IMG/VR virus record: IMGVR_UViG_3300015263_000962
Location: 1-64,000 of that record
Origin: a virus
DNA: 64,000 nucleotides
Strand: one strand, 5' to 3'
Numbering within the stretch: position 1 is the stretch's first letter; each line of letters starts with the position of its first letter. The position numbers were made by a program, and so were the translations under genes. Under the pieces are notes generated by a model that did not search any database, was not told the DNA's origin, and saw only the letters and a list, made by a program, of their open reading frames with translations. This document shows, piece by piece, positions 33,611 to 44,704 of this stretch.

Positions 33611-33867
33611 TTACTCGGGCGCAGCCAGTGATCTCTGATCTCCATCAACGATGTTGTATCAAGAGGGCAGCCCAGCGACTCTGGCAATAACGTGTCCATC
33701 GTACACTTGGGGCAAAGAGCCGTCTCGTCATCATCGGTCCACAAATCGATGTCCTCTACCTGAATAACTTCAAGGCAGTTGTAGCAACCACAGACCTGTG
33801 ATTGCAGAACTGCCTCTCTGTTTTTGAAGGCATACATCGGTGCTTTTCTAATGTATTCCTCGCTCAT
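33580..33867 (-). CDS. zinc-binding conserved hypothetical protein
   Basis: 95 residues. CGCYNC followed by LWTDDDETALCPKC is a zinc site that recurs in a small family I know only as hypothetical. Its start shares bases with the portal stop, so it is co-translated with portal. The C-terminus, SSPPPKSE, lies in the overlap with the opposite gene. Confidence 0.7.
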   Translation of the reverse strand: MSEEYIRKAPMYAFKNREAVLQSQVCGCYNCLEVIQVEDIDLWTDDDETALCPKCTMDTLLPESLGCPLDTTSLMEIRDHWLRPSNHSSPPPKSE

Positions 33868-36413
33868 TAAGACTCCTCTGAGTAATCAATCTCCTCGTCG
33901 TCCATTTCCTTTGCGTAGTTCTGAATCTCAAGATTGAACTTCTTGATTTCTTCCTCATCTGGCTCTGGAATCGGCGAATCCATGTTGGTCTGAGGCGCAT
34001 TACCCGCTTCTGGGGTCGCTTCCATTCCTGTGCTGTCCGCATCCATGTACTTACGCATTCCTTGTGCGCCTTCAGGTGGCGGTTGCTGTTCTTCGCCCGG
34101 CTGACCGCCCAACATTGGGTTCGGACCACCCGGCTCTGTGCTCACTTCGTCCTCGTCTGGGCCGGGCAAACCGACACCAAGCAACTGAGGATTCTGAGCA
34201 ATGATTTGGAGCTTCAACTCTTCCAATTTTTGGATTTTGAGTCGGGCCAACATTTTCTTGGCTTCGTCCTCTGGATATTTCATCCATTTTGTGAGGATGT
34301 CGAAGTCGCTCATCAGTTGTGAGCCCTTCAAGTTGGCCGCATTGTTCAATCGGTTGGTAATGACTTCCGCTCTTGTTAGTTCTCGCCAGTCAGACGGAGG
34401 CGTCATTTTGATCGTCAGATCTTCATAGATCTCTTCCGGGTATCCCAACAATCTCAGATGTCGATCACAGATCTCCCAGAAGGCATCCTCCATGTGAGAC
34501 TGCAATCGCTCGATCATGCGGGCGAACTTGATATCCTGAGCCGACAAAGCAATTCGTGTGCTCTGTGTGTCTTCGTTGTTGAAGTAGTTTCTCGGGAAGT
34601 TCAAAGCCGTGAACAGCTTGTTGCGGAAGTACACAGTGTCATCGATCTCGCCGAGGTTTTGAGCACCGGGCAAAGTCTCAACACGGGTATTTGCATTTGG
34701 ACGAATTGGAATCCAGTAATCTTCGTCTGCCGCTGGAGCGTGCCAGCGTTCCTCAACGCCAGATGCGCCCGGCAGACTTCCGCCCTTCCGGCTGCTCACC
34801 TTCTTCTTCTTGAACTGATCCTTCATACGTTCGATGAAGGCTTCAGCCTTGTTCGGCGGCAACTGGGCCACGTCGATATAGAAAACACGTCGTTCCGGTG
34901 CCCGAGTCAAACGGTACACAACCATGGCGTCTTCCATCATTCTCAACTGATGAGCAGGCCCACGAGCCGCTTCGATCAAAGAAACGCCATATGGATAGAA
35001 GGTCTTTCTGTCATCGCCGATCTTGATGTGAATAATCTGCTCTGGAGCAAACCGAATAGCTGTCGCCTGTTGAAGATCGGCTTCTGTGGCTTGAGTGACT
35101 TCAACCCGAGCCAAGCTCTGGTAGTCCGGGCCTTCCTTCGACTGTTGAAACTCAACCAGCTTGCCTTTGGTTGTTTCGATTCGGTACATGCTATCAGGCG
35201 GCAATGGCACCAGATTAAGAACGCCGTCTTTGGGGTTCTCGGTATCAATGACGATTTCATAGAAGAAGTCGCCCATTGAGAAGAGCCGTTTCGCCATATC
35301 CCACATCTTCTTCTGATCGAAGTTGAGCATCTTGCGATGGAACAACAGATATTCGAGTTCTTCTTGAATCTCGACGTTGTTACAGTTGACGGTCATAACT
35401 CGACCATCATCGTCCTTCTGGCAGTTGTGAACGATTCCCCAATCTGTGGCGAAGTTCTGATGGCCTTCAACTGACAAGTCGTAAACATCGATCTCTCTCC
35501 ATGGTTGAATGCCAATCACACGGCGATGATCCTTCTTCTTGCCGAGCCACTTGAGTTCCTTATTGGAGAAACCGGCTTTCTCGATACGCTCCCTGACTGT
35601 CCTGAAATCACTACCTGTCAACTTGTTGATCTGGCGAACCGACAACCCTTCAGTGACCATCTGGCAATAACTGTTGACCTGCTTCATCGTTTCTGAGGTC
35701 TTGCCGCTCGTCCAATCATCAACAAATTGTCGCTCATGAATCCAACCCTTGTCGTGAGTCCAGATACGGGCGAACTGATTAGTCTTCAGATTTGTAAGAT
35801 CTTGCCGTGCCGAGAGTCGGTAGAATGGCATCAACTCCGATCCATGTTCTAAACGGCCAGCTTCAATCCACGTTCGATCCGCCATCAAGATTCTGTGGTC
35901 CGGTGTGCAGATGAAATAACTACCATCGTCCAGCTTCACCTTAATGGTCATGGCTTTCTTGGTCTTGCGTGGATTGAAAGCCCAGCCTAGCGTGTAGTCA
36001 CGCTTATCGAAGTCGAAGCAATAGACCAAGAAGCGTTCTTCTTCGCTCTCAGCCAATTCTTGTATTGTTTTGAATCCGTGTGGCGTTGCAATTTTTGTAT
36101 CGCCAGCCAAACACGCTTCGTCTGCAAAGACCGTCATCGCCATTTCGATTTCGGCCATATTTCTGAGACGTTCGTACTCTTTATATCTGTGGACACGGTT
36201 CGTCACCGTGGACAAATCCACAAAATCGTTCGTATCTCGCAGACGGATGGCACCACTGCCACCACCCCACGATCCGTCTTGTCCCGCCCGAATATCAGGA
36301 ATTGCGTCAGGTTGTGAAACGCCTGCGCCACCCATATCCCGATGACTTCTTCTGGTCAGCGGATCATCTGTGAATGCGTAAGTGAATACCTTAAAAAAGT
36401 CCCACCAAGCCAT
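33867..36413 (-). CDS. gp20: T4 gp20-type portal protein interrupted by an intein
   Basis: 848 residues as translated, 618 after removal of the intein at residues 101-330. Flanks read ..VFADEA / CQKDDDGRVMTVN, the conserved portal segment following the ADE motif. The C-terminal exteins include PERRVFYIDVAQLPPNKAE and NEDTQSTRIALSAQDIKFARMI, typical of gp20. The last ~120 residues are Gln/Glu/Pro-rich. The portal forms the dodecameric DNA-entry ring, and the terminase (43.4 kb) docks to it. Upstream are a GGTAACAG element and AAGGAGAGC. Confidence 0.95.
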   Translation of the reverse strand: MAWWDFFKVFTYAFTDDPLTRRSHRDMGGAGVSQPDAIPDIRAGQDGSWGGGSGAIRLRDTNDFVDLSTVTNRVHRYKEYERLRNMAEIEMAMTVFADEACLAGDTKIATPHGFKTIQELAESEEERFLVYCFDFDKRDYTLGWAFNPRKTKKAMTIKVKLDDGSYFICTPDHRILMADRTWIEAGRLEHGSELMPFYRLSARQDLTNLKTNQFARIWTHDKGWIHERQFVDDWTSGKTSETMKQVNSYCQMVTEGLSVRQINKLTGSDFRTVRERIEKAGFSNKELKWLGKKKDHRRVIGIQPWREIDVYDLSVEGHQNFATDWGIVHNCQKDDDGRVMTVNCNNVEIQEELEYLLFHRKMLNFDQKKMWDMAKRLFSMGDFFYEIVIDTENPKDGVLNLVPLPPDSMYRIETTKGKLVEFQQSKEGPDYQSLARVEVTQATEADLQQATAIRFAPEQIIHIKIGDDRKTFYPYGVSLIEAARGPAHQLRMMEDAMVVYRLTRAPERRVFYIDVAQLPPNKAEAFIERMKDQFKKKKVSSRKGGSLPGASGVEERWHAPAADEDYWIPIRPNANTRVETLPGAQNLGEIDDTVYFRNKLFTALNFPRNYFNNEDTQSTRIALSAQDIKFARMIERLQSHMEDAFWEICDRHLRLLGYPEEIYEDLTIKMTPPSDWRELTRAEVITNRLNNAANLKGSQLMSDFDILTKWMKYPEDEAKKMLARLKIQKLEELKLQIIAQNPQLLGVGLPGPDEDEVSTEPGGPNPMLGGQPGEEQQPPPEGAQGMRKYMDADSTGMEATPEAGNAPQTNMDSPIPEPDEEEIKKFNLEIQNYAKEMDDEEIDYSEES
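35424..36113 (-). mobile_element. intein in portal protein (230 residues, with HTH insert)
   Basis: It starts at C101 (CLAGDTKIATPHG, block A) and has CTPDHRILM with T170 and H173 (block B), YDLSVEGHQNFATD (block F) and ends in VHN (block G), followed by C331. All residues needed for splicing are present. The region between B and F is ~130 residues and has no LAGLIDADG or HNH motif but contains LSVRQINKLTGSDFRTVRER (about 257-276), a helix-turn-helix that looks like the DNA-binding remnant of a homing endonuclease. Confidence 0.9.
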
Positions 36414-37793: not shown

Positions 37794-38068
37794 ACCGTCT
37801 TTTCAAACTTCCTCATAAAAGAAACAACGCAGCGGCAATTTGGGTGGACGTTCTGTACTACAACGAACAGTTCACCTGCCGTGCGTTGTGCGATTGCTGT
37901 AAGTTCATCTTCTGGATGACCGACTACGATCAAATCGATCTGCCCGAACCCGAGCTTTACTATAAGTTTCGGGTTCGTGGCATGAGGGAGTACCACAGAC
38001 GAACCAAGGGTTTGTGGAATCCGTCACTTCTTCAGGAAGATCTTATCTTTGACGCCATTCTTGGATGA
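37661..38068 (+). CDS. hypothetical protein overlapping tube protein 2
   Basis: 135 residues from ATG 37661, in a -1 frame relative to the tube gene. It contains LLFTHLGNDEKIVEVLDRHP, CVYHTGNEYHHPDDLDRLF and WVDVLYYNEQFTCRALCD, a clearly coding pattern that vaguely recalls sulfotransferase-type P-loop starts, though I would not assign that. It ends convergent with the 2H phosphoesterase (45 bp overlap). It could also be made as a frameshift product of the tube gene. Confidence 0.6.
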   Translation: MHLGNACLLFTHLGNDEKIVEVLDRHPNICVYHTGNEYHHPDDLDRLFKLPHKRNNAAAIWVDVLYYNEQFTCRALCDCCKFIFWMTDYDQIDLPEPELYYKFRVRGMREYHRRTKGLWNPSLLQEDLIFDAILG

Positions 38069-38548
38069 GAAGACCACATAGTCTGCGGTGAACTCTTCGC
38101 CTTCCCATTTTGTTTTTCCACGATGTTTCCAACCCTTGCCCTTCTTAACGTATGCAACGGTGATGTGGGGGCGATAACTGCTGTACTTGTTGGTGTGCCT
38201 AACCTTCTCGGCCAATACCCCATTCCACTTTGTTAAGTCTTTGCTGGTCACATCAATGACCACAACATCAAACTTCATGGGATTGGTGAAGATCTCGATC
38301 TTGTTGAGCTTCACGGTGATCGGCCCAGCGTCGGCCAGCAGATGTTCTACTTGGTTGGGGCTCTCGGAGTGGATTCCGTACAGAATGGTTGCGTGCATCT
38401 CGTCTTCCCGGCCAAATGTCGGGTCGCTCTGACTGACGAAGATGTCGTCGTCCGAGATGTTGTCTTTGCCCCATAGAATGATCTCCTCAGCAAGTTGCGA
38501 TGGCAAATCGATGTGAACCGAGGAGAAGTCGTAGTTCACATTTTTCAT
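38024..38548 (-). CDS. 2H phosphoesterase (2'-5' RNA ligase-like)
   Basis: 174 residues. EMHATILYG (about 50-58) and YRPHITVAYVK (about 125-135) are the paired H-x-T motifs. It is the second 2H protein in the window and is only distantly similar to the one at 23864-24268. A role against cyclic-oligonucleotide immune signals or in RNA repair is possible; the sequence does not decide. Confidence 0.8.
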   Translation of the reverse strand: MKNVNYDFSSVHIDLPSQLAEEIILWGKDNISDDDIFVSQSDPTFGREDEMHATILYGIHSESPNQVEHLLADAGPITVKLNKIEIFTNPMKFDVVVIDVTSKDLTKWNGVLAEKVRHTNKYSSYRPHITVAYVKKGKGWKHRGKTKWEGEEFTADYVVFSSKNGVKDKIFLKK

Positions 38549-43405: not shown

Positions 43406-43492
43406 GGAACCTCGCATTTTTTCTCAGAAATTTTCTGGGGTTGTACTTTAAGATGCGTCTGGTAGAATCAGCCCAACATAGGAGAATTGTAT

Positions 43493-44704
43493 ATGACGAC
43501 CAAACAAGTCCTCGCCTTTCTGCTTACCTTGAGCACGCTCGGATGTATCGCTCTTGGTGTGAAGTACCTACATGACCATCGAGTCAAGCCACCAGTGGTG
43601 GTAGAACAACCTCCCAGCCACGACGGGGAAACGACCCCTCTCCCAGAGGTCAAAGAGCATACTGTCGAGGAAGCCGTCGCCTCGATCACAGAAGAGGAAC
43701 TCAAGACGGACCTGTACTATTTGGCCTCTGACGAACTGGAAGGCCGCATGTCTGGTAAGAAGGGCAATGTAACGGCTGCGGCTTTCATTAAGGCCGAATA
43801 TGAGAAGATGGGTCTGGAAACCATGTATCACAAGTTTCCGATTCGCCGTCTCAATCCGGGGCCGAAGAATGAGCAAGGTGATGATTTCACTCAGAACATC
43901 TATGCTTGGATTCCCGGCAATGACCCGAAGTATAAGGACGAAATCATTGTCATCGGGGCACACATGGATCACATTGGCTATGGCCCCAGCATGTCTCGGG
44001 CTCCTCGCCGCTTGGAAATCCACAATGGAGCCGATGACAACGCCTCGGGCACTGTGGGTCTGCTGGAGATTGCCGAAGCCTTCTCGTTGGTTAAGGATAA
44101 AGTGAAGCGAACCATCGTCTTTCAGTCCTACAGTGCCGAAGAGATGGGCCTGATCGGCAGCCGCTACTATTGCGATCACCCGGTGTTTCCACAGGGAAGC
44201 CCAGACATCAAGAAGCACATCTTCATGTTGAACATGGACATGATCGGGTACTTAAACAAAGGCGTGTACTTCGCCGGGTTCGATGCCGCTGAAAGCTCTG
44301 TTGACATTTCAGCCATAATCAACGATCTTAACGAAAAGTACACGTTTGCCAGAAGAATCACCAGCCGAGGGAGTGGCGGAAGTGATCACGCTTGCTTCTA
44401 CAACAAAAAGGTGCCTATTGCTTTCCTCCACACTGGAGGGCACCCGTACTACCACACGCCAGACGATACAGCGGACAAAATCAATTACGCTGGTATCGAG
44501 CAAGTTGCCCGTTATGGCTTCGAGTTGGCGTGGAGAGTGGCGCAATCTGAAACGCCGCCTCGCTTCAACCATGCGTCCTTTAAGGAAATGGACTATGTTC
44601 ATGACCATGGACATCCTGAAGTTCCGTTCGCTCATCCTTATCATCAGGAAGAGTGGGAACGTGAGCACGGACATCCACACAATCACGGACGAGACGACGA
44701 ATAG
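43493..44704 (+). CDS. M28-family metallopeptidase, membrane-anchored or lipoprotein
   Basis: 403 residues from ATG 43493 (AGGAG, eight bases). The N-terminal helix ends STLGC, a possible lipobox. The co-catalytic zinc ligands are all visible: GAHMDHIGYG (His/Asp), NGADDNASGT (Asp), SAEEMGLIGS (Glu pair), NMDMIG (Asp) and FLHTGGHPYYHTPDD (His). Family members are aminopeptidases. The C-terminal tail is His-rich (HDHGHPEVPFAHPYHQEEW..HGHPHNHG), perhaps storing or delivering zinc. It acts outside the cytoplasm if exported. Confidence 0.85.
   Translation: MTTKQVLAFLLTLSTLGCIALGVKYLHDHRVKPPVVVEQPPSHDGETTPLPEVKEHTVEEAVASITEEELKTDLYYLASDELEGRMSGKKGNVTAAAFIKAEYEKMGLETMYHKFPIRRLNPGPKNEQGDDFTQNIYAWIPGNDPKYKDEIIVIGAHMDHIGYGPSMSRAPRRLEIHNGADDNASGTVGLLEIAEAFSLVKDKVKRTIVFQSYSAEEMGLIGSRYYCDHPVFPQGSPDIKKHIFMLNMDMIGYLNKGVYFAGFDAAESSVDISAIINDLNEKYTFARRITSRGSGGSDHACFYNKKVPIAFLHTGGHPYYHTPDDTADKINYAGIEQVARYGFELAWRVAQSETPPRFNHASFKEMDYVHDHGHPEVPFAHPYHQEEWEREHGHPHNHGRDDE

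Follow-up and report, generated by a model that had tools for sequence, protein, structure and literature searches.

A widespread family of nuclease-less, probably HNH-derived inteins in the portal protein of T4-like phages

The T4-type portal protein encoded in the window, i.e. the stretch of 64,000 nucleotides of viral DNA analysed here (positions 1 to 64,000 of the IMG/VR record IMGVR_UViG_3300015263_000962), contains a class-1-type intein. This intein belongs to a widespread and well-delimited family in the DNA-entry ring protein of a large group of uncultured phages; the family is probably derived from HNH inteins, has no nuclease but has kept the scaffold of one, and is not a new endonuclease. 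Most probably, the catalytic core of an HNH homing intein was lost long ago, and the element has since been inherited vertically with the portal, the remaining scaffold being kept for folding and splicing.

The portal gene and its neighbourhood

The portal protein is encoded by an open reading frame for 848 amino acids (33867-36413, minus strand; ORF translation of the window) which matches the Pfam families Portal_T4 (PF07230; 6e-78) and Intein_splicing (PF14890; 6e-12). The 230-amino acid piece alone matches Intein_splicing at 4e-13, both NCBI intein end models (TIGR01445 and TIGR01443) exceed their cut-offs on it, and portal residues 101-330 map exactly to 35424-36113, from C1 to N230 of the intein (Table 1). 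A portal intein at this position had been proposed in the first-pass annotation, and the profile matches bear it out. It is the only Intein_splicing match in the 76-kb viral record.

A gp23-type capsid gene, a prohead protease, tail-tube-like genes and a T4-type terminase are neighbours of the portal gene, so that the region represents a T4-like structural module; the Portal_T4 match and the nearby protease, capsid and terminase genes mark the protein as a T4-type portal. Two other genes of the window may be mentioned. Near the portal (38024-38548, minus strand) a protein matching the Acb1 anti-CBASS (3.6e-7) and 2'-5' RNA ligase families is encoded, possibly a counter-defence gene. A gene for an M28-family peptidase (3e-40; 43487-44704, plus strand) adjoins the terminase, which is unusual for a structural module.

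Table 1 Parts of the portal gene and of its intein in the window (intein residues counted from C1)
Feature	Position	Strand	Evidence
Portal N-extein, residues 1-100, end ..VFADEA	36114..36413	-	Translation; empty-site homologue L104 = ..IYADEACQIG..
Whole intein, 230 aa	35424..36113	-	PF14890, TIGR01445, TIGR01443; AF2 pLDDT 96, pTM 0.90; Foldseek
Hint N-terminal splicing half, residues 1-97 (block A C1; block B TPDH 70-73)	35823..36113	-	TIGR01445 E 1.5e-11; conservation
Putative residual HNH-endonuclease N-flank, residues 98-138: linker, beta-hairpin, helix, QFxR..GWxHERQFxDEW	35700..35822	-	Invariant residues; aligned to hairpin/helix preceding the HNH core of portal HNH inteins
Short connector, about residues 138-146, HNH core absent	35676..35702	-	hhalign skips the HNH core near here
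Putative residual DNA-binding HTH, residues 139-196	35526..35699	-	AF2 helices; Pfam HTH matches in relatives; aligned to C-terminal HTH of portal HNH inteins
Hint C-terminal splicing half, residues 197-230 (block F VYDLSVEGHQNF; block G VHN)	35424..35525	-	TIGR01443 0.002, above cut-off in bits
Portal C-extein from Cys+1 (CQKDD..), stop included	33867..35423	-	Portal_T4 6e-78; phrog_213 1.6e-76

Splicing residues and predicted fold

The sequence features of a class 1 intein are complete: an N-terminal cysteine (C1), the TxxH motif (T70-P-D-H73), block F, the C-terminal H229-N230 and a cysteine at position +1. In 82 relatives T70, D72, H73, H229 and N230 are conserved in 100 % and C1 in 98 %, and the reported cysteine at portal residue 101, the HN-C end and blocks B and F are confirmed. 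The flanks had also been said to join to a normal portal sequence. A natural portal without the intein (L104) reads ...IYADEACQIGENG... at the same junction, hence the exteins form a complete protein.

Because these residues are intact and conserved, the usual class 1 steps can be proposed. An acyl shift at C1, assisted by TxxH, would be followed by transfer to Cys+1, and cyclisation of Asn230 with the assistance of His229 would release a portal of 618 amino acids. Splicing is likely, as the intact signatures suggest and as had been assumed before, and infection can soundly be inferred to depend on it.

For the whole intein AlphaFold (AF2) predicts a confident Hint fold, a beta-hairpin (116-126), a helix (127-136) and four further helices (141-154, 159-166, 170-179 and 184-191). 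The listed PDB matches obtained with Foldseek are Hint structures, such as 6frg (E 3.8e-9). The middle domain modelled alone reaches a pLDDT of 85 versus 96 in the whole intein. A mini-intein would be a bare Hint domain, with nothing ordered inserted at the HEN site; the window intein has an ordered, conserved domain of about 100 residues at this position.

Kinship of the middle domain to HNH endonucleases

HNH, LAGLIDADG and GIY-YIG families are absent from the Pfam and NCBIfam families listed for the window intein and its 66 relatives, which agrees with the earlier statement that no nuclease is visible. A single PHROG named HNH endonuclease matches nine relatives weakly (best E 0.011), and the PHROG matches of the window intein's own middle region are weak and of no known function. 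Neither LAGLIDADG motifs nor the HNH catalytic core (HH/DH..N..H/N), past which the profile alignment jumps, were found in the window intein. A PDB fold search with the middle domain alone gave no significant match and only weak ones of the helix-turn-helix (HTH) type, such as DosR and RcsB. The HTH itself was seen at the right place in the first-pass annotation: Pfam HTH families match several relatives (HTH_28 1.7e-5, HTH_23 4e-5), and the second and third of the four AF2 helices correspond to portal residues 259-266 and 270-279.

Among viral models the best Foldseek matches are inteins with a TMq of up to 0.68 (the solved Hint structures listed do not exceed 0.54). These alignments contain a large insert in the target, and in two of the best-matching inteins an HNH core lies inside this insert. 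The inteins of SP-15, S-CBWM1, LR756508 and CL131 have HNH-like cores, located between a hairpin/helix and additional sequence towards the C-terminus. Many HNH inteins were then revealed by a dedicated scan, several of them in portals of other T4-like phages. In one of these (L278) the layout is MPFYRK, YRFIYT, GWQREHKVVAEW, then VVHHKNFTKFDNNPENL with HNH core and linker, then ICENSEFNLYSLCSKLDTDPNVIKRRLRKNGFKNFETF, a second HTH-like repeat and NHKVVSVEYYGEIPLYDLTVDGYKNFATD..HN; the window intein has MPFYRL, FARIWT, GWIHERQFVDDW, nothing in place of the core, CQMVTEGLSVRQINKLTGSDFRTVRERIEKAGFSNKELKW and RRVIGIQPWREIDVYDLSVEGHQNFATD..HN. Where the window intein has its short connector, the HNH catalytic core and linker are present in related inteins, e.g. 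EVVHHKNFIKYDNNPENLHIM in L312. The pattern of the portal HNH inteins is GWQREHKVVAEW ... RRLRKNGFKN, and on the sequence level GWIHERQFVDDW pairs with GWQREHKVVAEW and TVRERIEKAGFSNKEL with VIKRRLRKNGFKNFETF.

A profile of the middle domain aligned by hhalign to five portal HNH inteins scores 43.1 (E 3.6e-6), colinear over hairpin and HTH with the HNH core skipped, and a second HTH match was obtained at 1.2e-4. The highest score among sixty column shuffles was 19.8, and the reversed profile scored 13.7. When the profile was built from all 50 HNH inteins, the flank matches became weaker (E 4.7e-4 and 0.008). The window intein thus possesses both flank elements of HNH endonucleases, and it is well supported by these alignments that the beta-hairpin with its helix (GWxHERQFxDEW) and the HTH represent the two flanks of an HNH homing endonuclease.

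Two other assignments were rejected. A plain MAFFT alignment of nine inteins paired HERQF with the HH of the HNH core; it was discarded because AF2 has a hairpin followed by a helix there and the profile alignment places HERQF on the preceding GWxxEHxxxAEW element. A link to RtcB was indicated by NCBIfam NF052663 (RtcB_rel_intein2): the whole intein matches it, whereas the middle domain (67 members), searched by itself, does not. Strong matches to this model in 299 genomes span only its RtcB part, and the link was regarded as Hint-driven.

Distribution of the intein and the empty site

Two scans of IMG/VR led by the intein, each kept to its best 80 matches, yielded 82 usable relatives of 228-233 amino acids, one of them from the phage collection. 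One relative on another contig is 100 % identical to the window intein. Wherever the upstream flank is readable, the relatives are located in portal genes between D-E-[AST] and C-Q. Two portal-led scans were added, the second led by an intein-less portal to favour empty sites. All scans together gave about 110 distinct inteins of 228-237 amino acids, all at the same portal junction; distinct sequences were counted since one contig may give several loci. L104 is the one intein-less portal found and nearly every other portal sampled in the clade is occupied, a figure which holds for this clade only, as just the best 80 matches per scan were kept. L104 and four truncated or variant loci were classified by eye. 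In the portal tree L104 branches within the intein-bearing clade. Its nearest kin are 31 % different from it, which gives the appearance of a single, clean and old loss. Numerous cultured T4-like phages give an uninterrupted match to the query over the insertion site. Searches for relatives of the window and among plasmids contributed nothing of use. The genomes of the relatives include the 595-kb genome LR756511 and contigs of 459 and 527 kb. One portal with a window-type intein (L084; RXKI01000042.1) is located on a contig binned in a Neisseriaceae MAG, which is probably a co-binned phage contig or a hint to the host.

The same portal gene may carry a second intein, inserted in the C-extein between VYRL and C. 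It comprises about 411-418 amino acids where complete and has a patchy distribution (5/88 complete portals); L038 and L046 carry it, and L040, with an extein 0.8 % different, is without it. In L083 it shows the LAGLIDADG-like motifs LMGFLIGDGS..LADADG. This active-looking homing intein was met after VYRL in L083, L038, L046, L043, L079, L084 and L033.

Further inteins were met during the scans. The T4-like portal L285 (from 204 onwards) contains two HNH inteins, one of them between ADE and C, one residue from the window-type site. In a 484-kb metagenomic phage (L088; LR756508.1, 145234-150656) the portal is an open frame of 1387 codons with apparently three inteins, two small ones and one with an HNH core. 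ORFs ending in a Hint N-half are located in the terminase region of Listeria phage LIS04, Lactobacillus phage CL2 and Brochothrix phage BL3 (L092, L093 and L090, respectively). In CL2 the following gene is annotated as HNH endonuclease, and LIS04 has separate intein-like, endonuclease and Hint ORFs before the terminase; these are possibly broken or split HNH inteins. An intein of 205 amino acids (L264, 3001-3615) has the hairpin together with an HNH stretch that is shortened (LIHHDRGKLNNAPDAF); it lacks the second H motif and an HTH, and looks like another, different stage of HNH loss.

Constraint and inheritance

The residual domain is under purifying selection and shows no decay. Closely related pairs have pN/pS values of 0.24 for HintN, 0.24 for hairpin and helix, 0.34 for the HTH and 0.21 for HintC, rough ratios since some pairs are near saturation. 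R116, G123, W124, E127, Q129, G181 and E186 are invariant in an alignment of 67 rows. The inteins diverge by up to 61 % and their length is nonetheless nearly constant, which argues that the domain cannot simply be deleted. Furthermore, the intein appears to have been inherited vertically with the portal over a long time, which is unusual for an element that was once selfish. Of the 53 well-supported portal splits obtained with 100 intein/portal pairs, 35 are found again in the intein tree and one is in conflict with it, the Mantel r is 0.71 with 0/999 permutations as high, and the two trees gave no sign of recent horizontal movement.

These data bear on the proposal of a new type of endonuclease domain, made in the first-pass annotation. 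The motif GWxHERQF is conserved above most of the Hint domain and might be taken as the active site of such an active homing enzyme, but this is very unlikely. The motif aligns with the element preceding the HNH core in HNH enzymes, kinship to nucleases is limited to HNH flanks outside the core, the fold search gave no significant nuclease match, and inheritance is vertical apart from the one conflicting split. In addition, several alleles have N, Q, S or G in place of H126, and such variation speaks against this residue as an active site. The middle domain is not supported as a new endonuclease, and, as far as sequence allows such a conclusion, homing by a nuclease of the intein itself is excluded.

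Hairpin and HTH might have been kept for binding of DNA or RNA, for example to the portal gene, to the end of the packaged DNA or to a regulator. Portal splicing would then be conditional and act as a checkpoint of head assembly. The HTH and the invariant motif (R116, W124, E127, Q129) are retained in the aligned relatives, contact with DNA has been proposed for HTH accessory domains of other inteins (PMC8966425), and conditional splicing of inteins is known. However, no part evolves faster than the HTH, and its helix 3 includes some of the most variable positions, a pattern that does not point to a conserved DNA target; nor was a target or a trigger identified. This possibility is rather unlikely. 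Retention of the scaffold for folding and splicing is judged to be most likely, and DNA-linked regulation less so.

Loss or later gain of the HNH core

In a Hint-only tree (LG+G4) the window clade is placed inside the HNH inteins, beside the portal HNH inteins L278, L301, L312, L290 and L297, and a mixture model groups it with seven portal HNH inteins (SH-aLRT 93). An AU test does not reject a tree with all HNH inteins on one side without the window clade (p 0.90), and with hairpin columns added the support of the grouping is only 31. The nesting in the Hint tree is suggestive only, and the exact branching is likely but not proved. The residual domain gives good support for a relationship to HNH inteins; that HNH was lost in the window clade, and not gained later elsewhere, is accordingly likely but not proved.

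The five inteins named above (also L281 and L315) share with the window intein the host gene, the Hint type, the MPFY linker, the hairpin/helix (GWxxEHxxxAEW), the C-terminal HTH and a similar block F/G end. Unlike it, they possess an intact HNH core (VVHHKNF..NNPENL..H..YH) and a linker and comprise 319-379 amino acids. In L278, L290 and L312, among these nearest kin, the intein is inserted 15 residues upstream in the portal, before Thr, so either the site has changed as well or the insertions are separate. An intermediate allele with HNH at exactly the window site was not found among the sampled relatives. The L285 intein at ADE/C, inserted one residue away from the window site, has an intact HNH and further C-terminal sequence before Hint-C, and is not closely related to the window intein in the Hint tree.

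The opposite order of events, with the hairpin-HTH form as the ancestral one, HNH inserted later in other lineages and nothing lost in the window clade, would be compatible with the AU test. But hairpin and HTH are parts of HNH endonucleases, the best trees place the window clade beside the portal HNH inteins, and among the inteins examined no other HNH-free hairpin-HTH intein was met. The same order of a VHRLVA helix, HNH and HTH is present in I-HmuI. A later gain of HNH is thus considered improbable.

A model for the persistence of the scaffold

According to the preferred explanation, the ancestor would have been an HNH homing-endonuclease intein of the kind that other T4-like phages still have in their portal genes. 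The HNH catalytic core and the following linker, roughly 100-200 amino acids, would have been lost on the branch leading to the window phage clade, and Hint, beta-hairpin/helix and HTH would have been rejoined as a compact unit of 230 amino acids, with loss of the capacity for self-homing. The leftover endonuclease scaffold may now be part of the folding/splicing unit (HINT-HEN 'mutualism'). The intein may persist because it sits in an essential gene from which it is rarely excised with precision, and because the scaffold has joined this unit, which would account for purifying selection and for inheritance with the portal. The alternative of a 'decayed homing endonuclease', offered in the first-pass annotation, holds in so far as the HNH core was apparently lost. 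The term misleads, however, since the remnant is fixed in about 110 alleles, constant in size and under purifying selection.

Free-standing HNH genes occur in phages, and introns are known to collaborate with separate homing endonucleases. An HNH enzyme encoded elsewhere might cut the empty site while the intein provides binding only. But PF13392 and PF01844 have no match over the cut-off in the 76-kb record, which is a fragment, and there is no sign of recent horizontal spread; the chance of such collaborative homing is very slight indeed.

Mutualism, i.e. a HEN scaffold aiding splicing, has been proposed for the TliVMA and MvuTFIIB inteins (PMC8966425), and conserved mini-inteins have been argued to persist in the same way (PMC8229266). 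The PhoVMA and TliVMA inteins resemble the window intein in their inactive or retained HEN scaffold, and in TliVMA also in an HTH-like accessory domain (PMC8966425). However, they are archaeal chains of 361-432 amino acids with a degenerate or active LAGLIDADG endonuclease whose fold is still present, and not HNH inteins of phages. Natural mini-inteins (e.g. PhoPol-II) and engineered Hint-only forms (the Ssp DnaB and Mtu RecA splicing domains) have a Hint fold without a working nuclease too, but with about 130-170 amino acids they contain at most a short HEN remnant (PMC8229266), whereas the window intein keeps about 100 ordered, conserved scaffold residues. Phage portal inteins have already been described in mycobacteriophages (PORT, cluster C1; PMC5050341); these concern different hosts and phages, and a residual architecture is not reported in the parts of that article consulted.

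The former homing intein could also have become an obligate, domesticated control element of the portal, in which a nuclease-free DNA-binding scaffold couples splicing to a DNA or assembly cue. This would explain the near-universal occupancy and the strong conservation in phages of up to about 595 kb, but it seems rather improbable. In the homing-cycle model an intein without nuclease should erode to a mini-intein or vanish; instead, about 110 alleles keep a core-less scaffold. Within one essential gene the scaffold intein is constant and inherited, whereas the LAGLIDADG intein at the other site comes and goes. The family is therefore a natural experiment on why endonuclease scaffolds outlast the loss of the nuclease, by splicing mutualism or by a gained function, and its compact set of inteins of about 230 amino acids allows a direct test of scaffold persistence.
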